Below are positions 5,998 to 22,125 of a stretch of 31,908 nucleotides of DNA, piece after piece. Both the position numbers and the translations under genes were made by a program. The notes below the pieces were generated by a model. That model worked only from the letters and a program-made list of their open reading frames with translations, did no database searches and had not been told where the DNA came from. Source of the DNA: a virus; IMG/VR virus record IMGVR_UViG_3300017963_000577, positions 1 to 31,908 of that record; one strand, 5' to 3'. Numbering within the stretch: position 1 is the stretch's first letter; every line of letters starts with the position of its first letter.

Positions 5998-6027
5998 TTG
6001 ACAAAAAGCCAGGCACTGTGCTAAAAT
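5998..6027 (+). promoter_or_regulatory. outward (antisense) sigma70-like promoter P+1
   Basis: TTGACA (5998-6003), 18-nt spacer, TAAAAT (6022-6027), followed at once by the GC-rich CGGCGCCGCGG. It faces the 3' end of the minus-strand gene at 6144-6500. Member of a repeated promoter family. Confidence 0.6.
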
Positions 6028-6787: not shown

Positions 6788-6817
6788 TTGACAAGAAGGC
6801 AACTACTGTGGTATAAT
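6788..6817 (+). promoter_or_regulatory. outward (antisense) promoter P+2
   Basis: TTGACA (6788-6793), 18-nt spacer, perfect TATAAT (6812-6817), then ATCGGCGCC. It is nearly consensus but has no plus-strand gene downstream. Confidence 0.65.
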
Positions 6818-6906: not shown

Positions 6907-6935
6907 TTGACACGACCAGACTCCTCCAAAATAAT
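6907..6935 (+). promoter_or_regulatory. outward (antisense) promoter P+3
   Basis: TTGACA (6907-6912), 17-nt spacer, AATAAT (6930-6935), with a GAGC upstream context shared by the family. About 60-75 nt downstream is a perfect palindrome (GCGGAGCG/CGCTCCGC) followed by TTT, a possible early stop. Confidence 0.55.
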
Positions 6936-7029
6936 ACGCTTGCGTACTGCACCGCGCGGCACTGAAATATCTGTACTTGAAATCCGACTACTGGCGCGGA
7001 GCGCGCTCCGCTTTAAATGCGAAAGCAAA

Positions 7030-7044
7030 TGATAATGATTCGCA
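7030..7044. promoter_or_regulatory. Fur-box-like palindrome A
   Basis: TGATAATGATTCGCA, a 7-1-7 arrangement differing from TGATAATnATTATCA only in the right arm. It sits in a 36-bp segment (7019-7054) repeated exactly at 8288-8323. Confidence 0.6.
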
Positions 7045-7070
7045 TTCCGCCGCCTCACGGCGCCCGCGAA

Positions 7071-7085
7071 TGAGAATCATTCGCA
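7071..7085. promoter_or_regulatory. Fur-box-like palindrome B
   Basis: TGAGAATCATTCGCA, close to the 7-1-7 Fur motif. Together with box A it forms a long inverted repeat (7034-7047 with 7068-7081, 13 of 14 bases paired). Confidence 0.6.
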
Positions 7086-7097
7086 TTTGGGGGCAGT

Positions 7098-7120
7098 AAA
7101 AAACCAGGCGTTGCGCCTGG
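7098..7120 (-). terminator. intrinsic terminator of the gene at 7233-7544
   Basis: On the minus strand, CCAGGCG, loop CAA, CGCCTGG, then six U residues (7103-7098). It lies about 110 nt after the stop codon; that stretch (7121-7232) holds no convincing ORF. Confidence 0.75.
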
Positions 7121-7232
7121 CATGAAAGTTGCATATTTTTCTCGGCAGCGGTTTTTAGCTTTACCCGTTAGGAACCGCCTTCCGCCTTTATATCCTTGCA
7201 GATGCGCGGGCCATCCTTGGCACGCTTTTTGC

Positions 7233-7544
7233 TTATTCCGCCTGGCGGCGAAGGAAATTCGGGATTTCTTCGTCTGTCGTAATGTCGTCAAATTCGACGG
7301 GGAACCTCGTTCCGGCTTTGAAGAAAGGAACCTCGGTAATGAGAATGATAGGCAGAATCGAATCGGCCACGTCACCCACCCAATATTTTTGCAGGGAAAG
7401 CGAATCCCATTCAGATTCCCATGAAATATCCGAGCGATCATAGCGGCAATCCATTTCTTCGCGCGCCAATTTTTTGGCGGTGAGCAGATCGGGGGTAATG
7501 CCGACAAAATCGTTATCTTCAGTTGAAACCAGATACATTTTCAT
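7233..7544 (-). CDS. hypothetical acidic protein (103 aa)
   Basis: MKMYLVSTEDNDFVGITPDL opens a beta-rich N-terminus. Many Asp and Glu follow, and IPNFLRRQ lies near the end. GAGGTG is 5 nt upstream of the ATG, and a strong promoter with a palindromic spacer precedes it. Not recognised. The mix of a short beta-hairpin and an acidic surface resembles small host-protein inhibitors or DNA mimics in general, but there is no specific evidence. Confidence 0.7.
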   Translation of the reverse strand: MKMYLVSTEDNDFVGITPDLLTAKKLAREEMDCRYDRSDISWESEWDSLSLQKYWVGDVADSILPIILITEVPFFKAGTRFPVEFDDITTDEEIPNFLRRQAE

Positions 7545-7603: not shown

Positions 7604-7936
7604 TTATTCGCTATCCTGCGAAAGCGCTTCCCGAAGCGCGACCAGAACCTTTTTAGTCGCTTTTTCGAGCGACTCGGCCTGCTCCGCTTCCATGCCGAGA
7701 ACCTCGGCAATGTCGGCCACAATAGCGGCTTTGGTTTCCGGCTTTGCGCCAGTTTTGGAAACGTATTCCGCTTTTTTGTAGAGGCCCATGCGGACCGCTT
7801 TCTGGCGGACCGATGCAAGCGACTTGCCGAGAGTAGATGCCAGTTCGGCCACAGCAGCCTTATGGTCCACCTCGCCCGCGAAAGCTTCGCGGATTGCGGT
7901 TTCCATCTCAGGAGTATAATTTACGGTTTTAGCCAT
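7604..7936 (-). CDS. SANT/HTH-like putative DNA-binding protein, paralog 2 (110 aa)
   Basis: Reads MAKTVNYTPEMETAIREAFA, GKSLASVRQK at residues 37-46 and LEKATKKVLVALREALSQ near the C-terminus. It shares the MAKTVNYTPEM start and the SQD-type end with paralog 3, so the two are recent duplicates, while paralog 1 is older. GAGGAGG lies 7 nt upstream of the ATG. Its leader holds a perfect 8-bp hairpin that has a counterpart before paralog 3. A role as a DNA-binding regulator of the local promoter family is plausible but inferred. Confidence 0.8.
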   Translation of the reverse strand: MAKTVNYTPEMETAIREAFAGEVDHKAAVAELASTLGKSLASVRQKAVRMGLYKKAEYVSKTGAKPETKAAIVADIAEVLGMEAEQAESLEKATKKVLVALREALSQDSE

Positions 7937-7993: not shown

Positions 7994-8022
7994 ATTTTAC
8001 AGAATTCAGTAGCCGAGGTCAA
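7994..8022 (-). promoter_or_regulatory. sigma70-like promoter of paralog 2
   Basis: TTGACC (8022-8017), 17-nt spacer, TAAAAT (7999-7994), minus strand, with TTGCTTGACC context. The -35 lies inside the 3' end of the upstream gene. Confidence 0.75.
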
Positions 8023-8170
8023 GCAATTTTTTTGCCGACTCCACTACGGCCAGCTCACCGCACGCGCGCCCCATCCGCAGAAGCATTTGCGAGCTACGCT
8101 TATGAGAGTATTTTGCAACCCCCGACAGGTAAATTTTCGCGGCCGCGTGCGTATAGCTGTCGTCTTTCAT
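8006..8170 (-). CDS. small basic hypothetical protein (54 aa)
   Basis: Start at 8170 (MKDDSYTHAAAKIYLSGVAK) is chosen over the ATG at 8197 because 8197 falls at the predicted transcription start. The sequence between them matches the leader conserved at other local promoters (TAAAnCATnGG then an A-rich stretch). Helical and basic, with no family recognised. It is followed directly by the paralog 2 promoter. Confidence 0.65.
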   Translation of the reverse strand: MKDDSYTHAAAKIYLSGVAKYSHKRSSQMLLRMGRACGELAVVESAKKLLDLGY

Positions 8171-8203
8171 TTTGCTGGTTTCCGTTTGCTTTTCCATGGT
8201 TTA

Positions 8204-8232: not shown

Positions 8233-8287
8233 GCAAAAAATTTCTATCTTGACTCGCCAGGTGATAGACCAGGCCTAACGTACGAAC

Positions 8288-8323
8288 GCGAAAGCAAATG
8301 ATAATGATTCGCATTCCGCCGCC
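8288..8323. promoter_or_regulatory. Fur-box-like palindrome C in a repeated 36-bp segment
   Basis: Identical over 36 bp to 7019-7054. The box itself is TGATAATGATTCGCA at 8299-8313. It lies between a TTGACT-containing promoter-like sequence (8249-8254, poor -10) and a plus-strand terminator. Confidence 0.6.
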
Positions 8324-8353
8324 GGCGCTTCGCGCGGGTTACGGCGCAATTTT

Positions 8354-8383
8354 CGTGCCAGGTTTGCGCCTGGCACGTTTTTT
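8354..8383 (+). terminator. strong intrinsic terminator on the plus strand
   Basis: CGTGCCAGG (8354-8362), loop TTTGCG, CCTGGCACG (8369-8377), then six U residues. The U-tract exists only on the plus strand, so it must serve a plus-strand transcript, although all annotated genes here are on the minus strand. Confidence 0.75.
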
Positions 8384-8385
8384 GC

Positions 8386-8580
8386 TTAAAGATATCTCTC
8401 GTAATAAGACAAAGTATCTAGCAATTCTAATATAGTTTCCTGTATTTCCTCTGCTTTATCTTCCGGTATATTTCCATTCATTAGGCCAGAATCTACAAAT
8501 TGCATTGCATAAAGTAAATTGTGGATTTCCCGCATATTTTTCAGGGTGATAGTTAATTCTATTTTGTGTTCAAAGTTCAT
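8386..8580 (-). CDS. hypothetical acidic helical protein (64 aa)
   Basis: MNFEHKIELTITLKNMREIH followed by amphipathic, acidic helices (EDKAEEIQETILELLDTL). GGAGA precedes the ATG, which overlaps the stop of the exonuclease gene by 11 bp. Last gene of the three-gene unit 9449 to 8386. Function unknown; coupling to the exonuclease suggests a related role. Confidence 0.7.
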   Translation of the reverse strand: MNFEHKIELTITLKNMREIHNLLYAMQFVDSGLMNGNIPEDKAEEIQETILELLDTLSYYERYL

Positions 8581-9233: not shown

Positions 9234-9449
9234 TTATACAACCCCCAAACCGTTAAGGTTTATAAACATCAAAAGTAGATTGGTAATAAGTAAACCGAGC
9301 ATATTTCGTTCATGCGCGATATACATCCAAAGTATATTAGAAAACATCCCGATTGTAAAGCCGTGCGATACATTTTCGGAAAGTAAATAAAGGCCGACGA
9401 TCGTCAGGACCGTTGCTAGTGCTTCGATGATTTGTTCTGCTCTGTTCAT
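9234..9449 (-). CDS. small membrane protein (71 aa), possibly leaderless
   Basis: There are hydrophobic stretches at about residues 8-25 (EALATVLTIVGLYLLS), 30-43 and 50-66 (MLGLLITNLLLMFINL), giving two or three membrane helices. The ATG lies only 7 nt after the -10 box, at the expected transcription start, and no ribosome site precedes it, so the mRNA may be leaderless. It opens the operon with the exonuclease, whose ATG lies just past this stop. Function unknown. Confidence 0.65.
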   Translation of the reverse strand: MNRAEQIIEALATVLTIVGLYLLSENVSHGFTIGMFSNILWMYIAHERNMLGLLITNLLLMFINLNGLGVV

Positions 9450-9518: not shown

Positions 9519-9548
9519 TTGACACCAGGCCGCGCGCCAGGGTATAAT
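9519..9548 (+). promoter_or_regulatory. outward (antisense) promoter P+5
   Basis: TTGACA (9519-9524), 18-nt spacer, perfect TATAAT (9543-9548), then CGGCGCGGCG. Fur-box-like palindrome D begins 7 nt after the -10, so a bound repressor would cover the start site. Confidence 0.7.
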
Positions 9549-9555
9549 CGGCGCG

Positions 9556-9580
9556 GCGAATGAGAATCATTCTCATTCGC
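9556..9580. promoter_or_regulatory. Fur-box-like palindrome D
   Basis: A perfect 12-1-12 palindrome. The core 9559-9577 is AATGAGAATCATTCTCATT, the classic form of a gammaproteobacterial Fur box. It lies 11 nt past the stop codon of the HAD gene and directly downstream of P+5. Flanking GCCAGGG (9536-9542) and CCCTGGC (9582-9588) extend the symmetry, so an RNA hairpin is also possible. Confidence 0.7.
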
Positions 9581-9591
9581 GCCCTGGCTAT

Positions 9592-10065
9592 TTAGTATCC
9601 TTGCGTTGATGGTACATAATGCGGAATCGCGCCGATAGCTTCCGAAACATCGCGCAAATAGTCTTTATTATCCTCCCAGAAATGCACGACCGCATTAGGG
9701 AAGCTAGCGATTATCGGCAACAATCCATTGATTTTCAATTCCGCGCCTTTGCGAACGTCATTCGGGCCGAGGCGATGAATGAAAAAATCCGGCAGCCCGA
9801 GCCGCTTTTCGACAAATTGCCAGTTTGCGTCACCCTTGACACAAGCGCGCGCGGTAGCAATTACGACCAAGGTTTCCGGGTCCATAATATCTTGCTTATA
9901 TTGTGCAGCATGGGGCAAAAGCGAGTCTTTTGCGATCTGTTCGGGAATGTCATTCTCGCGCCAGTGTTTGAGATCAATTCTCATTTCGCCGGGCACAGTC
10001 CGGTAACGATGGGAGCTAGAAATTACAGTCCCGTCAAGATCATAAACGTGAATCTTTTTAATCAT
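9592..10065 (-). CDS. HAD-superfamily phosphatase-like protein (157 aa)
   Basis: The HAD motifs are in order: motif I D9-x-D11-G-T (VYDLDGTV), motif II T71 (VIATARA), a lysine candidate for motif III (K106 in VRKGAELK) and motif IV EDN (131-133, HFWEDNKDY). It is therefore probably an Mg-dependent phosphohydrolase; small HAD proteins of phages act on nucleotide or nucleic-acid phosphates, including end-healing enzymes. Substrate unknown. The start at 10065 (MIKKIHVYDL) is chosen for GGAGAA 7 nt upstream. Single-gene unit with its own promoter; its 3' end abuts Fur-like box D. Confidence 0.8.
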   Translation of the reverse strand: MIKKIHVYDLDGTVISSSHRYRTVPGEMRIDLKHWRENDIPEQIAKDSLLPHAAQYKQDIMDPETLVVIATARACVKGDANWQFVEKRLGLPDFFIHRLGPNDVRKGAELKINGLLPIIASFPNAVVHFWEDNKDYLRDVSEAIGAIPHYVPSTQGY

Positions 10066-10140: not shown

Positions 10141-10169
10141 TTGATTTCGCCAGGCGGCTGTGGTATAAT
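10141..10169 (+). promoter_or_regulatory. outward (antisense) promoter P+6
   Basis: TTGATT (10141-10146), 17-nt spacer, perfect TATAAT (10164-10169), then CGGCGCGGCC. The start site would lie just before or at the edge of Fur box E. Confidence 0.7.
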
Positions 10170-10180
10170 CGGCGCGGCCA

Positions 10181-10205
10181 GATGATAATGATTATCATTA
10201 TCATC
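10181..10205. promoter_or_regulatory. Fur box E (matches the consensus exactly)
   Basis: A perfect 12-1-12 palindrome. Read on the minus strand, 10202-10184 is GATAATGATAATCATTATC, identical at all 19 positions to the established Escherichia coli Fur-box consensus. It lies 10 nt after the stop codon of the gene at 10216-10488 and about 11 nt after the -10 of P+6, an ideal place to repress that promoter. Confidence 0.8.
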
Positions 10206-11197: not shown

Positions 11198-11227
11198 TTG
11201 ATTTCACCGCCAGGCCCGTGTTATAAT
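11198..11227 (+). promoter_or_regulatory. outward (antisense) promoter P+7
   Basis: TTGATT (11198-11203), 18-nt spacer, perfect TATAAT (11222-11227). Homologous to P+6 through the ATTTGATTTC and CGCCAGGC blocks. Fur-like box F lies about 30 nt downstream. Confidence 0.6.
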
Positions 11228-11256: not shown

Positions 11257-11285
11257 GTAACGCTAATCATAATGATTCGCATTAC
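11257..11285. promoter_or_regulatory. Fur-box-like palindrome F (weakest match)
   Basis: A 14-1-14 imperfect palindrome with two mismatched pairs. The core 11267-11281 is TCATAATGATTCGCA. It shares AATGATTCGCATT with boxes A and C and occupies the equivalent intergenic place, past a stop codon and next to an outward promoter. Confidence 0.45.
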
Positions 11286-12061: not shown

Positions 12062-12320
12062 TAGCCACATAAGCCAGGCTTATACAAATCCAAAACAAAA
12101 AGAATTTGTAATTAGCCAGGTGGTATGATCTTTGCTTATGCAAGAATCGTGCCAAGCCGGTTGGCACAGCTCTTGCTTAGCAAGAAGCGTGCCAGGGGCG
12201 GTTATCAGACTTTTCTTCCTACGGACTAGCCTGACCCCTCCTCACGTAAACCATCACAAAAAATTTCAATCAATTATGGTGCAATAATAGGGCTGCCATA
12301 CCCAAAACCAAAAAAATCTC
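12062..12320. repeat. intergenic repeats and hairpins upstream of terS
   Basis: No gene in about 300 bp. A direct repeat (12132-12154 and 12173-12194, TTGCTTA(T)GCAAGAA then CGTGCCA) flanks a hairpin GTGCCAA/TTGGCAC (12149-12155 with 12161-12167). Each repeat also has a small internal stem (TTGC/GCAA). A CCAGGTGGTATGAT sequence at 12114-12128 resembles the outward promoter family. This is the junction between the leftward block and the packaging genes, so a cis-acting packaging or replication site is conceivable. Confidence 0.5.
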
Positions 12321-12349
12321 TTGACATTTACAAAAGTTGGTGTTATAAT
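12321..12349 (+). promoter_or_regulatory. strong sigma70-like promoter for terS/terL
   Basis: Perfect TTGACA (12321-12326), 17-nt spacer, perfect TATAAT (12344-12349); GGAGG follows, upstream of the ATG at 12370. It drives the packaging operon. Confidence 0.85.
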
Positions 12350-17130: not shown

Positions 17131-20100
17131 ATGGCATCACCTGTACGTTTACTACCAGATTTTCCCCTCGCCCGTGCGGCGAGGGGCTGGCCCAGCAATC
17201 CGCTAGAAAGGCCAGCATGTGCCTTGATCCCAGGTGGAAAACTTGGCGCAAAACTGTCTTTCTTTGCCAGCCAGTTTCGTGGTCGCAATTCAATACAGAA
17301 TTACACCGGCAAAGACTTTACGATCAACGGCACGGTCGGAGTCGATCATGTAGAAAAAGCAAATTCGACCGCACTAGTGTACTCGTCAGATTATGCTGAT
17401 CTGTCATCGGCACTCAACGGGCCAAACCCTCCGACGCCGACATCTGGCACGATTGCTTTTTATACAAAGATAACAACAACATCTAGCGGCGAAGACTTTT
17501 TCGGCATTGCTTGCGATGGCACAGATTTTATAGGATTTCGCAACATCACCGGCGATATGTATGCCAGATATAGAGGAGGCGGCTCAAATTATAATGCGGT
17601 GCTTGGTAATATCCCGACAGGTGAATGGCACCTTTTTGCGATGTCATGGGATGCCACCACAGTTTACGGTTATGTTGACGGGGTTCTAGTAGATTCTGCA
17701 GCACACTCAAAAGATACTGTATCTTGCGATAATATTTACATTAATGGCGACCTGCAAAACGATAATGTAACAACAAATGTTCAAAGCGTGTATTTTGCTG
17801 CGGGGTGGGGAGTACCGCTATCTGAGGCTGAACACGCCGAACTGTTTAGGGCGCCATTTAATTCAAGCCTCCAACCCGCCAACGACTCACCACTCCTGAT
17901 AGGTACCGCAGCAGAGACAAGTCAGTATTTTATTCCGGCTAATACGCCACTGGCTAAGGCGGCGAGGGGCTGGCCTACTGCTCCCGTAGAAAAACCAAAC
18001 CCGGGCACAGCCGAAGTCAACCGCAACAATGCGTTTGGTTCGATGGTCGCGGACTTTTGGATCTTTGGCGACGGTCCAGAAATAAAATCAATCACCGGGT
18101 CGGGTGCTGATTTTAACGCAAGTGCGACAAACACCGGTGTAACTAATCAACCGTCTTATACAGACGAGCCTTCTTATGAAGAAGACCCGTTAAATCTTAG
18201 ATCGCGGTCAGGAATGGGGTATGGGGCGACCGGGTTTAGCAATGACGTATTTGAAAACTTTAGAGTTAGGCCAAATTACGGCACTGAATATACAATTTTT
18301 GGCGTATGTATTCGTGCTGCTGATGATTATCACCGTGCAATAGCACCAACCGCAGCTTATGGGTCTGGTGGTTATTGTATGCTCGATGCTGGCGCAGACA
18401 TATACCACGCGGCGGGCGGCGGGCCAGGGGGTAGCGCAAGCACTAATACTATAATTGCGACCAATGCTGGAGACAGGGGTTACGGGAAATTTGATTATTA
18501 CTGCCTGACCCGCAAAGGAACAGATGTCACTGTCTGGTGGAATGGAGAAAAGCAAGGAACCGGGACAACTCTAAATGCCACATCAGAATTTGAACCACTA
18601 GGACTTGGCTACGGTGCGATCGCTAGCAAGTGGTTTAGAGGCGTCGCCTTCTGGTGTGGAGTCCTAGACAAGGGATTCCCAAATGACGATGCTGTTATTG
18701 AGGCGCTGCTGGCAGATCCGTTTCAATGCTTGCAGCCCGCCGACCAGTCGCCATTCCTGATAGGCACCGCAGCAGCCGAGGCAACGATCAGCCAATACTT
18801 CATTCCGCCTGGTACGCCGGTTCACAAAGCGCTATCGGGCTGGCCTGCTTCGCCACAAGAAAAGCCAAAGGTTCCTGTAAGAATCAATTGGCAGCATTCC
18901 GACGCGCAAGGGCTGCACCATTGCTATGCGTTTACCCGTGACACTTACATCGGGAAGGATCTGACCGGCAGGCGTGATGGCACGTTAGTCGGAGACAGTA
19001 TTGAGCATCAGCAGGATTGGCTTAATTTTTCCGGCGACAATTCAGCTGATCGTATAGATCTTGGAACCGTAACGGCTACAGGCGATCTACTTGGCGTAAA
19101 AGCTCAAGAATTAACAATCGTAGGAAGTTTCAGATGGGAAGATACCTCTGGTAATGGGTTCCCAAGAATTATAGAGAAGTCTAATGCTGCCGGTGGTGGA
19201 GTTGGTGGTTGGGGTTTGTTTTTTACCAACAGCTCAAACACATTTGAGTTATTTATTAACGGATCAGGAAAAGCGAGTGTATCCGTAACTGCAAACGTAT
19301 GGCACGACTTTTTAGTTACTTTTAGCCCGACAAGCGGATACAAGCTGACAGTTAAAAACAGAAACACAGGGGCGGAAGTTTCCAATTCATCCTCGCCGAC
19401 AAATGTTCCAACCGATACATGCAGTGTCGCAATTGGTAACTGGGCACATGCGTCAGACCGTGAAATGCAGGGAGATATTGGATATCTCTATGTGTTTTCA
19501 GATGTCAGGGAGGAGCAAGCAAAAAGAATCTGGGATGCACCGTTTGCTTTCTTAGAACCCGCTAACCAGTCGCCATTCCTGATAGGCACCGCAGCAGCCG
19601 AGGCAACGACAAGCCAATACTTTATCCCTGCCGGTACGCCGATACACAAGGCGTTGTCGAGCTGGCCTGCGCCTGAGGAAAAACCCACTATTCCGCTTCG
19701 TCTCAAATCCGATTTGCAAATCGCATCGGCGTGGATTGATAAATCACTTCGGGATTTTGCTACGCCGGGACTTGGTGGATATACGCCAGACAGTGATGCG
19801 GAATGGCAGGCTGACAGTTGGTCTTTTCCATCATCGCTTGACACGATCAAAAGTGCAGACAATCTTGTTATGTCTGCCAATCAAGATTGGTCGATGGCTT
19901 GTCAATTCCGAATTGATACCTTAGTCGGCAACCAGTACATAATGTCATGCCAAAGCAGAGACATTCTTTCGGTTCACATAGATTCGGCAACAAGGCTAGA
20001 AGTCAATGCCGATGCACGAGACGGCCCCACGTTTCCTACTAATCAGTGGATAACACTTGTTGTCAGATCGGAGGGAACCGGGTCAACACGCTGGTTTTTG

Positions 20101-22125
20101 CTTGGCGAAGAGGTTGCGGGATGGGCACCGCAAGATCCAGTAAATGGCGTATTAGAATGGGGTGATCTGGCTGGATTGACTAACACAAGGCAGTTGCGGG
20201 GTAATCTGCGGTTTGGTGTTTTTAGAATCGGCAGATGGTCTGACGCAAAATGCAGGGCGATAGTAAAAGATCCTTATGGGGAACTTTTCGAACCCGCCAA
20301 CCAATCGCCGTTACTGATAGGCGTATCGGGCGGGGCTGAGCCTGGCGATATAGTACCTTTTAATGGTATCGGTTCTAATGGTATCTCAGCAGGTACAGGT
20401 CAAGTTGGTCAATTAATACTCGGATATGTATTAACTGGTACTAACGGTACTTCAGCTGGTACGGGACAAATAGGTACTTTAACCACTGGTACTAGTTTCA
20501 TTGGTATTGGTTCTAATGGTACCTCAGCAGGTACAGGTCAAGGTGGAACACTAGCTCGCGGAGCTGTTGTAGTTGGTAATACAGGTACTTCAGCTGGTAC
20601 TGGTAATACTGGTACTCAAAATGTAGGGCACGTATTAACTGGTACTAACGGTACTTCAACGGGTACTGGTCAAACAGGCTCTGAGATTAGAGGTAACATT
20701 TTTGTTGGTTCTAATGGTACCTCAGCAGGTACAGGTCAAGGTGGAACACTAGCTCGTGGAGCTGTTGTAGTTGGTAATACAGGTACTTCAGCTGGTACTG
20801 GTAATACTGGTACTCAAAATGTAGGGCACGTATTAATTGGCTCTAATGGAACTTCAGCTGGTACAGGTCAAACAGGCGCTGAAGCGCTAGGATTAGTATT
20901 AACTGGGTCTAACGGTACTGCAACTGGCACTGGACAATTAGGTACCTTATATACAGGAAATGCATTTAGTGCAATCGGAGGTACAGGTACCTCAGTCGGC
21001 ACTGGACAATTAGGTACTCTAGCCAAAGGTCATGTACTAAATGGCGCTAGTGGAACTTCAACGGGTACTGGTCAAATAGGCTCTGAAGCGCTAGGATTAG
21101 TATTAACTGGTTCTAACGGTACTTCAGCTGGTACTGGTCAAACAGGTACTATAGCTGGCGGTGTAGAAGCTAATGGCCAATCAGGTACTTCAACAGGTAC
21201 TGGAGAAACAGGTACTGAAGTACGTGGTAATATTTTTGTTGGTTCTACTGGCACTTCAGCTGGTGTAGGTCAAAACGGTAATTTAATTGCTGGAGATTCC
21301 TTCATTGGAGCAGGAGGTACTGGTACTTCAGTTGGTACAGGCCAAACAGGTCAATTAAATCGTGGTAATGTACTTACTGGAAACTTCGGTACTTCAGCAG
21401 GTACAAGCCAACCAGGTACTGAAGTACGTGGTAATGTATTAACTGGCTCTTTTGGTACTTCAGCAGGTACAGGTAGTACAGGTACCGAAGTACGTGGTAA
21501 TGTATTTACTGGAGCTTCTGGTACTTCAGCAGGTACAGGTCAACCTGGAGACCTAACATATAACTTTGCTTTTGTAGGAGGTACGGGTACTTCGACAGGT
21601 ACAGGTAATACAGGTACCGAAGTACGTGGTAATATATTTACTGGAGCTTCTGGTACTTCTATAGGTACTGGTTTACAAGGTCTATTTAACGCAGTAGCGG
21701 GTACCGGACTGTACTTTGATAAATTAATATTACAGAGTGTAGAAGAGGATACTTTATTAACAGTTGTACAAAATCCTACTATTTTACAAAGTTTAGGTGA
21801 TAGTATAATTGTTGTAGAAAGTAATGATACAGTTGTACTAGTACAAGATGATACTACAGATGTTAAATTTATATATGTAGCAGAACAAGGACCAGCAGGA
21901 CCAGCCGGAGGAGAAGAAGTGCCATTAGCAAAGCAAGTTGATTTTATTGATGATGAGCATATTTATATTGGAGAGGCTGATCCAGGTACTCCGACATCTT
22001 CTGCTTTATGGCGTATTAAATATGTAGTAATAGCAACTGATAGTGATGTTGCTATTACTTGGGCGCAAGGTAACGCTACATTTGATAAAGTATGGGATGA
22101 TAGATTAATCTATACATATTCGTAA
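17131..22125 (+). CDS. giant fibre-like structural protein with LamG modules and Gly-rich repeats (1664 aa)
   Basis: Four modules of about 250-280 residues occupy residues 1-1070. Each looks like a concanavalin/LamG sandwich (TGEWHLFAMSWDATTVYGYV; NVWHDFLVTFSPTSGYKLTV). They are joined by related linkers at about 249-290, 532-580, 808-853 and 1053-1068 (SPFLIGTAA; QYFIPAGTPIHKAL; GWP). Residues about 1076-1523 hold 20 repeats built on GTSAGTGQ. The C-terminal 140 residues include EQGPAGPAGG and a folded end. Such proteins bind host surface glycans and form long fibres or appendages. The LamG part is clearly GC-richer than the repeat part, and the linkers are conserved in DNA, pointing to transfer and module duplication. 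Role in adsorption is inferred. Confidence 0.85.
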   Translation: MASPVRLLPDFPLARAARGWPSNPLERPACALIPGGKLGAKLSFFASQFRGRNSIQNYTGKDFTINGTVGVDHVEKANSTALVYSSDYADLSSALNGPNPPTPTSGTIAFYTKITTTSSGEDFFGIACDGTDFIGFRNITGDMYARYRGGGSNYNAVLGNIPTGEWHLFAMSWDATTVYGYVDGVLVDSAAHSKDTVSCDNIYINGDLQNDNVTTNVQSVYFAAGWGVPLSEAEHAELFRAPFNSSLQPANDSPLLIGTAAETSQYFIPANTPLAKAARGWPTAPVEKPNPGTAEVNRNNAFGSMVADFWIFGDGPEIKSITGSGADFNASATNTGVTNQPSYTDEPSYEEDPLNLRSRSGMGYGATGFSNDVFENFRVRPNYGTEYTIFGVCIRAADDYHRAIAPTAAYGSGGYCMLDAGADIYHAAGGGPGGSASTNTIIATNAGDRGYGKFDYYCLTRKGTDVTVWWNGEKQGTGTTLNATSEFEPLGLGYGAIASKWFRGVAFWCGVLDKGFPNDDAVIEALLADPFQCLQPADQSPFLIGTAAAEATISQYFIPPGTPVHKALSGWPASPQEKPKVPVRINWQHSDAQGLHHCYAFTRDTYIGKDLTGRRDGTLVGDSIEHQQDWLNFSGDNSADRIDLGTVTATGDLLGVKAQELTIVGSFRWEDTSGNGFPRIIEKSNAAGGGVGGWGLFFTNSSNTFELFINGSGKASVSVTANVWHDFLVTFSPTSGYKLTVKNRNTGAEVSNSSSPTNVPTDTCSVAIGNWAHASDREMQGDIGYLYVFSDVREEQAKRIWDAPFAFLEPANQSPFLIGTAAAEATTSQYFIPAGTPIHKALSSWPAPEEKPTIPLRLKSDLQIASAWIDKSLRDFATPGLGGYTPDSDAEWQADSWSFPSSLDTIKSADNLVMSANQDWSMACQFRIDTLVGNQYIMSCQSRDILSVHIDSATRLEVNADARDGPTFPTNQWITLVVRSEGTGSTRWFLLGEEVAGWAPQDPVNGVLEWGDLAGLTNTRQLRGNLRFGVFRIGRWSDAKCRAIVKDPYGELFEPANQSPLLIGVSGGAEPGDIVPFNGIGSNGISAGTGQVGQLILGYVLTGTNGTSAGTGQIGTLTTGTSFIGIGSNGTSAGTGQGGTLARGAVVVGNTGTSAGTGNTGTQNVGHVLTGTNGTSTGTGQTGSEIRGNIFVGSNGTSAGTGQGGTLARGAVVVGNTGTSAGTGNTGTQNVGHVLIGSNGTSAGTGQTGAEALGLVLTGSNGTATGTGQLGTLYTGNAFSAIGGTGTSVGTGQLGTLAKGHVLNGASGTSTGTGQIGSEALGLVLTGSNGTSAGTGQTGTIAGGVEANGQSGTSTGTGETGTEVRGNIFVGSTGTSAGVGQNGNLIAGDSFIGAGGTGTSVGTGQTGQLNRGNVLTGNFGTSAGTSQPGTEVRGNVLTGSFGTSAGTGSTGTEVRGNVFTGASGTSAGTGQPGDLTYNFAFVGGTGTSTGTGNTGTEVRGNIFTGASGTSIGTGLQGLFNAVAGTGLYFDKLILQSVEEDTLLTVVQNPTILQSLGDSIIVVESNDTVVLVQDDTTDVKFIYVAEQGPAGPAGGEEVPLAKQVDFIDDEHIYIGEADPGTPTSSALWRIKYVVIATDSDVAITWAQGNATFDKVWDDRLIYTYS
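20509..20836 (+). repeat. 130-bp direct repeat inside the fibre gene
   Basis: 20509-20638 and 20707-20836 are nearly identical (one visible C/T difference near 20560/20758), offset by 198 bp. They encode repeat units 3-4 and 6-7 of the Gly-rich region. Slippage or recombination between them would change fibre length in frame. Confidence 0.8.

Follow-up and report, generated by a model that had tools for sequence, protein, structure and literature searches.

A terminator-like hairpin in a viral genome fragment reads as a divergent pair of sigma-54-type elements beside a Fur-type box, within a probable cluster of host-regulator binding sites

The locus examined here raises the question of what a strong terminator-like hairpin contributes at the end of a gene lying on the opposite strand. 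In the window (the whole 31.9 kb stretch of viral DNA that was analysed), the best plus-strand terminator-like site between 5 and 12 kb was found at 8354–8377 (CGTGCCAGGT TTGC GCCTGGCACG), followed by TTTTTT at 8378–8383. The hairpin at 8354–8383 alone scored −18.6 kcal/mol, a stability equalled by 0 of 200 shuffles (z −6.4), and its T run stops 2 nt short of the stop codon (8386–8388) of a minus-strand ORF (8386–8580). The initial annotation, which had described a stem with six U residues ending 2 nt ahead of that stop codon, was accurate in both respects. It had missed an outer GCAA...TTGC extension and the fit of both halves to a sigma-54 consensus. The hairpin is the inner part of a 40-bp inverted repeat at 8346–8385 with the arrangement GCAA-N4-CGTGCCA-N10-TGGCACG-N4-TTGC. 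Read outwards, the plus half (8370–8386) is CTGGCACG-TTTT-TTGCT and the minus half (8361–8345) is CTGGCACG-AAAA-TTGCG. The consensus of the −24/−12 element of sigma-54 (RpoN) was reportedly given by Barrios et al. in 1999 as mrNrYTGGCACGNNNNTTGCWNNw, and the likeness extends to all of its fixed positions, the 4-nt spacer and the preferred flanks (R and Y before, W after); TGGCAC/T-G and TTGC are both present, with GG and GC 10 bp apart. The plus element (CTGGCACGTTTTTTGCT, 8370–8386), which overlaps the stop codon of the minus ORF, matches YTGGCAYGN4TTGCW exactly, and the minus element (CTGGCACGAAAATTGCG, 8345–8361) has an exact core with G as its last base.

In a longer RNA fold the outer GCAA pairs with TTGC and the 4-nt spacers stay unpaired, so the symmetry covers both the −24 and the −12 boxes; the outer GCAA and the final GC are superfluous for a terminator. 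Of the six T residues, four are the variable N4 spacer and two open the TTGC box. The appearance of a terminator thus comes from two back-to-back sigma-54 elements with a T-rich spacer, and terminator finders can call such paired elements terminators. A second back-to-back pair in the window (12139–12177) likewise forms a hairpin, with no T run. Consensus matching strongly supports reading 8345–8386 as a divergent pair of sigma-54 (−24/−12) elements beside a Fur-type operator at 8294–8315.

The proposal that a plus-strand, Fur-controlled small RNA ends at this hairpin, or that the hairpin terminates some other plus-strand transcript, draws on the strength of the stem with its six U residues, which on structure only has the form of the intrinsic terminator of a Fur-regulated sRNA, on the Fur-like box upstream and on the presence of several good plus promoters in the region. 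The box (GCAAATGATAATGATTCGCATT, 8294–8315; 12 of 14 positions of TGATAATNATTATCA) proved stronger than had been claimed, being one of six in the window, a near-perfect one (10184–10202) among them, and of a kind that T5-like phages share. However, TTGACT (8249–8254, plus strand), which had been put forward with the remark that its −10 was poor, is a decayed copy of the region's plus-strand promoter family with no −10: by eye, the best candidate at 16–18 nt matches at one of six positions and is not acceptable, and a promoter scan reported no plus promoter at 8249. An Rfam search of the whole window returned no match at gathering score, and the would-be transcript aligned with relatives only over the Fur box and the minus sigma-54 site. 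The orthologous elements of three relatives that keep this minus site (G004, G005 and L186) have no plus-strand T run or terminator. Moreover, the paired sigma-54 sites account fully for the hairpin, and a comparable T run was present in just 4 of 48 arms among 24 distinct pairs of the same geometry. The suggested kinship with RyhB and PrrF comes down to a terminator-like hairpin that has a Fur-like box ahead of it, with no promoter, family match or conserved transcript. The box, the hairpin and the TTGACT motif stand, whereas a small RNA or a genuine plus-strand terminator is improbable.

Compared with phages by megablast, 24 kb of the window gave no match. The large terminase of the window is T5-like (49.5 % identity to that of Vibrio phage VspSw_1). 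In two metagenomic relatives of 100–102 kb (G004 and G005) the Fur box and, next to it, the minus sigma-54 site have both been retained. In G005 a small ORF and then a gene for a 110-aa protein lie downstream of the two sites, in the same order as in the window, where these genes occupy 8006–8197 and 7604–7936 on the minus strand and the latter belongs to a family with three copies (MAKTVNYTPEM type). In L186 both genes and the sigma-54 site are present and the Fur box is absent. In a 46-kb relative (G011), a gene that resembles one for a small terminase is immediately preceded by eight alternating sites; this block has nucleotide similarity to window positions 12132–12326, and Fur-like boxes lie further left. 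Terminase relatives among marine contigs (L004–L083) had no exact-form sigma-54 site, so the trait is not general to the window's terminase type. A Pfam search of ten minus-strand proteins of the window yielded a single weak match, below cut-off.

Exact YTGGCAYG-N4-TTGCW sites numbered five in the window against 0.01 expected from Markov shuffles, and the sigma-54-type sites and Fur-like boxes all fall within a stretch of small leftward genes at 7.0–12.2 kb. Apart from the pair, sigma-54-type sites are present at 7117–7133 (plus strand; CTGGCATGAAAGTTGCA), at 7217–7233 (plus strand; TTGGCACGCTTTTTGCT), where the site overlaps the stop codon of a minus ORF (7233–7544), and in an array of three that precedes the terminase operon and is homologous to the eight-site array of G011. 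The array members lie at 12139–12155 (minus strand; TTGGCACGATTCTTGCA), 12161–12177 (plus strand; TTGGCACAGCTCTTGCT), back-to-back with the first, and 12179–12195 (minus strand; CTGGCACGCTTCTTGCT). A good minus-strand terminator at 7098–7121 (GCCAGGCGCAACGCCTGG-TTTTTT) has an arm that overlaps the 7117–7133 site.

When the spacer between the two boxes was varied from 1 to 9 nt, 4 nt alone was enriched: five sites against 0–1 for other lengths in the window, 13 against 0–1 in cultured Vibrio phages and 178 against 0–1 in a set of array-bearing sequences. Because membership of that set required one pair with a 4-nt spacer, its first pair does not count as independent evidence, whereas no such selection applies to the window and the Vibrio phages. 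Flanking bases unused by the search also followed sigma-54 preferences, with Y at −1 in 87 %, R at −2 in 81 % and W after TTGC in 95 % of 173 array sites, and with Y in 32 and W in 34 of 41 other sites. Within one array the N4 spacer bases vary and TGGCA and TTGC, the bases that sigma-54 reads, are constant, and a reversed-pattern control gave 0 matches in all records tested. A scan of the window for LexA, CRP, ArgR, PurR, MetJ, Zur, NrdR, PhoB, IHF, Lrp, FNR, TyrR and DnaA sites found none above chance. The sites described here are very likely of sigma-54 type and Fur type.

Fur-like boxes are similarly concentrated. The six members of the family start at 7025, 7066, 8294, 9556, 10178 and 11262, with about 0.5 expected, and GATAATGATTCGCATT with up to three mismatches was matched nine times against 0.5. 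At a threshold of at least 12 of 14 positions of the 7-1-7 consensus, the window holds six boxes against 0.25 expected, five of them in 7.0–10.2 kb; phages PG07 and DT57C hold 4 against 0.15 and 4 against 0.2, respectively. The boxes besides that at 8294 span 7025–7046, 7066–7087 (palindromic, GCGAATGAGAATCATTCGC), 9556–9577, 10178–10202 and 11262–11283. Their likeness to the Fur box (TGATAATNATTATCA) amounts to 11–14 of 14 positions, being perfect at 10183–10197, and 10184–10202 agrees with 18 of 19 positions of the Fur consensus. Two boxes directly follow plus-strand promoter-like sequences, the 9556 box a TTGACA-18-TATAAT at 9519–9548 that is divergent from a minus-gene promoter, and the 10178 box a TTGATT-17-TATAAT with TG before the −10 at 10141–10169. 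Since these two boxes, at the +1 of their promoters, resemble ordinary operators, part of the cluster may regulate transcription; the differences from known Fur boxes are that the phage has no Fur and that T5 also has promoterless tandem arrays. The plus-strand promoter-like family of the window comprises 5998–6027, 6788–6817, 6907–6935, 9519–9548, 10141–10169 and 11198–11227, placed back-to-back with minus-gene promoters and facing minus-gene 3′ ends, in some cases followed by GGCGC and a Fur box. Similar promoter-like sites (TTGACACGGGC...TATAAT) were seen in G004, G005 and G007.

The exact geometry of the pair, with its 10-nt gap and some 21 fixed bases, recurred in 32 other IMG/VR stretches, which include near-identical contigs and reduce to 24 distinct sequences counting the window's own. 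In prokaryote genomes it was found in three stretches in 257 billion bases. Many of the 32 stretches proved to be arrays in which up to about 12 sites alternate in strand, as in G017, with ten exact sites within 268 bp, and L230, with ten within 295 bp and two DnaA boxes inside. These dense alternating arrays were found almost only in viruses, and carriers of the motif are diverse, including T5-like phages of 100–120 kb, a Pakpunavirus of 92 kb and contigs of 37–128 kb. Among arrays of sigma-54 consensus sites (L217 3562–3779, L230 3411–3705, L233 13256–13523, and also L226, L232 and L240), regular start-to-start spacings of 18–19, 22, 25, 26 and 28 bp were apparent, and some enclose DnaA boxes. 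A lac-operator-like palindrome, GTGAGCGCTCAC, which is perhaps another host-regulator site, occurs near sigma-54 pairs or Fur boxes in L225 (3082), L237 (9639) and L117.

Cultured T5-like Vibrio phages carry one to six exact sigma-54 sites per genome, confined to about 4.4 kb (reversed-pattern control, 0), and these adjoin the A1, dmp and terminase genes where annotation permits judging; Fur, LexA and DnaA sites accompany them in this terminal-repeat/pre-early region. The annotated left terminal repeat of VF16 contains all four kinds, sigma-54, LexA, DnaA and Fur. Fur-like boxes and no sigma-54 site were seen in T5, DT57C and a Klebsiella relative; DT57C also has perfect LexA boxes and T5 near-perfect ones. 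The Fur-like, LexA and DnaA sites of T5 are located at 9.33–9.64 kb, by nick 1 at 7.9 % (9661–9668) and inside the 10.1-kb terminal repeat, a stretch for which the T5 record annotates repeats and palindromes only. Positions 1454–1766 of L176 (T5, AY587007 7841–11095, reverse complement) hold ‘direct repeat C’ and palindromes, which are Fur-like boxes, and ‘palindrome D’ (9330–9349), a near-perfect LexA box; both adjoin DnaA boxes and nick 1. Elsewhere in T5, a 7-1-7 Fur box at 233–247 is perfect.

According to a 2026 paper, the T5 injection stop signal consists of repeats, palindromes and DnaA boxes with which host components may interact, and how it is released is still poorly understood (PMC13250531). 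The noncoding region of the T5 left terminal repeat that holds this signal (AY587007 9.3–10.1 kb) corresponds in genome position to the Vibrio-phage site clusters and resembles the window in having Fur-like palindromes, there by pre-early genes and with LexA and DnaA boxes. It differs in that T5 has no sigma-54 site and the window no DnaA or LexA box. An A1 homologue was present in G001–G003 and T5, and none was found in the window, a 31.9-kb fragment, or in G004, G005, G007 and G011. With a T5-like large terminase nearby, yet neither an A1 homologue nor DnaA boxes, the window was not classed as a T5-type injection-stop region, since two of the defining features fail.

Genes for sigma-54, Fur or a sigma-54 activator (enhancer-binding protein) were absent from the 17 phage records searched, so the readers of the sites must be host proteins; a phage-encoded Fur or sigma-54 as reader was rejected on the same ground. 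We propose that the 7.0–12.2 kb cluster of consensus sites is there for host sigma-54, alone or as holoenzyme, and Fur to bind, not to encode an RNA. Once phage DNA has replicated, many high-affinity sites would draw off scarce sigma-54 and, in part, Fur, and this sequestration would blunt sigma-54-dependent host responses involving phage-shock and RNA-repair genes, flagella and secretion systems. A second effect might be that stable, inactive sigma-54 closed complexes, with Fur, block antisense transcription through the region. Both the binding and its effect are what we infer here. To the statement as a whole, that the sigma-54 pair and Fur operator are part of a host-regulator binding cluster with sequestration as the preferred effect, we assign a probability of roughly 60 %; that sequestration is the main function has slightly less than even odds. 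Binding for its own sake is favoured because the alternating orientation, dense packing, stop-codon placement and lack of a consistent downstream gene are unsuited to promoters.

Sigma-54 is present at about a hundred molecules per E. coli cell, and precedents for titration exist in datA, which titrates DnaA, and in the Fur titration assay, which employs a multicopy Fur box. The likeness lies in clusters of consensus sites able to draw off a limited regulator; the difference is that the clusters described here are on a virus and are mainly for a sigma factor, and titration by them is proposed from sequence. Several points weigh against capture. No sigma-54 site is present in enteric T5 phages, even though E. 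coli possesses sigma-54; for a protein as abundant as Fur, six boxes per genome might not suffice for titration; and T5 degrades host DNA, which would make the gain from capturing host regulators smaller.

Some of the sites could be real promoters. If host sigma-54 holoenzyme and a host enhancer-binding protein transcribed from one or both paired sites, with Fur repressing in an iron-dependent manner at the start or close to it, phage genes would respond to host nitrogen, stress and iron state. The exact consensus suits this, as do the position of the site in G005 and L186, upstream of and pointing to the conserved small ORF and 110-aa gene, the Fur box of G004 and G005 about at the predicted start of the sigma-54 site, and, in the window, several Fur boxes at the +1 of strong sigma-70-like promoters, directly after the −10 elements ending at 9548 and 10169. 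Dense alternating arrays, plus sites at 7217 and 8370 that start inside minus-gene 3′ ends and read antisense, and phages with no activator gene, whose genes there already have near-consensus sigma-70-type promoters, argue otherwise; unlike ordinary −24/−12 elements, those described here occur as back-to-back pairs or alternating arrays. Overall, we regard working promoters as an unlikely explanation.

A structural or replicative role, in which host proteins assemble on the DNA into a nucleoprotein block, like the one proposed for the injection stop signal of T5, or mark an origin, would fit the clustering of T5 sites by nick 1 within the terminal repeat, the four kinds of site in that of VF16, and the description of the stop signal as an element of repeats, palindromes and DnaA boxes with possible host interaction (PMC13250531). 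The window and its nearest relatives, however, have no A1 homologue and hence give no indication of two-step injection, and neither DnaA box, TTATCCACA or TTATCAACA, has an exact copy in the window, for which reason the window's reading as a replication origin was rejected; such a role is quite unlikely here. It is also improbable that the motif merely resembles sigma-54 sites and is bound by a phage-encoded protein, such as a small terminase at a packaging array, a replication initiator or a repressor. The 12139–12195 array and that of G011 do lie just upstream of terminase genes, and some arrays enclose DnaA boxes, but the 7117 and 8345 sites are far from the terminase. Furthermore, the same motif, 4-nt spacer and weak sigma-54 flank preferences recur in very different phages, whose DNA-binding proteins should differ, and the sites co-occur with consensus Fur, LexA and DnaA sites, all for host proteins.

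Sigma-54 promoters, Fur boxes and the repeat-rich region of T5 are already known. In open-licence literature on the injection stop signal, and on sites for Fur or sigma-54 in T5-like phages, we found no description of the sites reported here, and no prior identification of clusters or arrays of host-regulator sites in phages. More tentatively, many aquatic phages, T5-like and others, may carry virus-specific sigma-54 arrays, accompanied by Fur, LexA and DnaA sites, which during infection would work on host regulators as sponges or roadblocks; in that case Fur and LexA would be among the host components whose involvement in the T5 injection stop signal has long been suspected. If so, phages bind and possibly disarm host global regulators via non-coding DNA, alternating fixed-spacing sigma-54 arrays constitute a viral DNA element not found described in that literature, and host proteins can be named as candidates at the stop signal.

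Fur-like boxes were also observed in unrelated Klebsiella jumbo and Pectobacterium phages (RaK2 225873, K64-1 225224, phiTE 39530 and CB7 75437), mostly with no annotated feature beneath. Elsewhere in the window, about twenty 66-bp repeats at 20358–21700 lie in a 1664-aa ORF (17131–22125) and probably represent a tail-fibre repeat domain.
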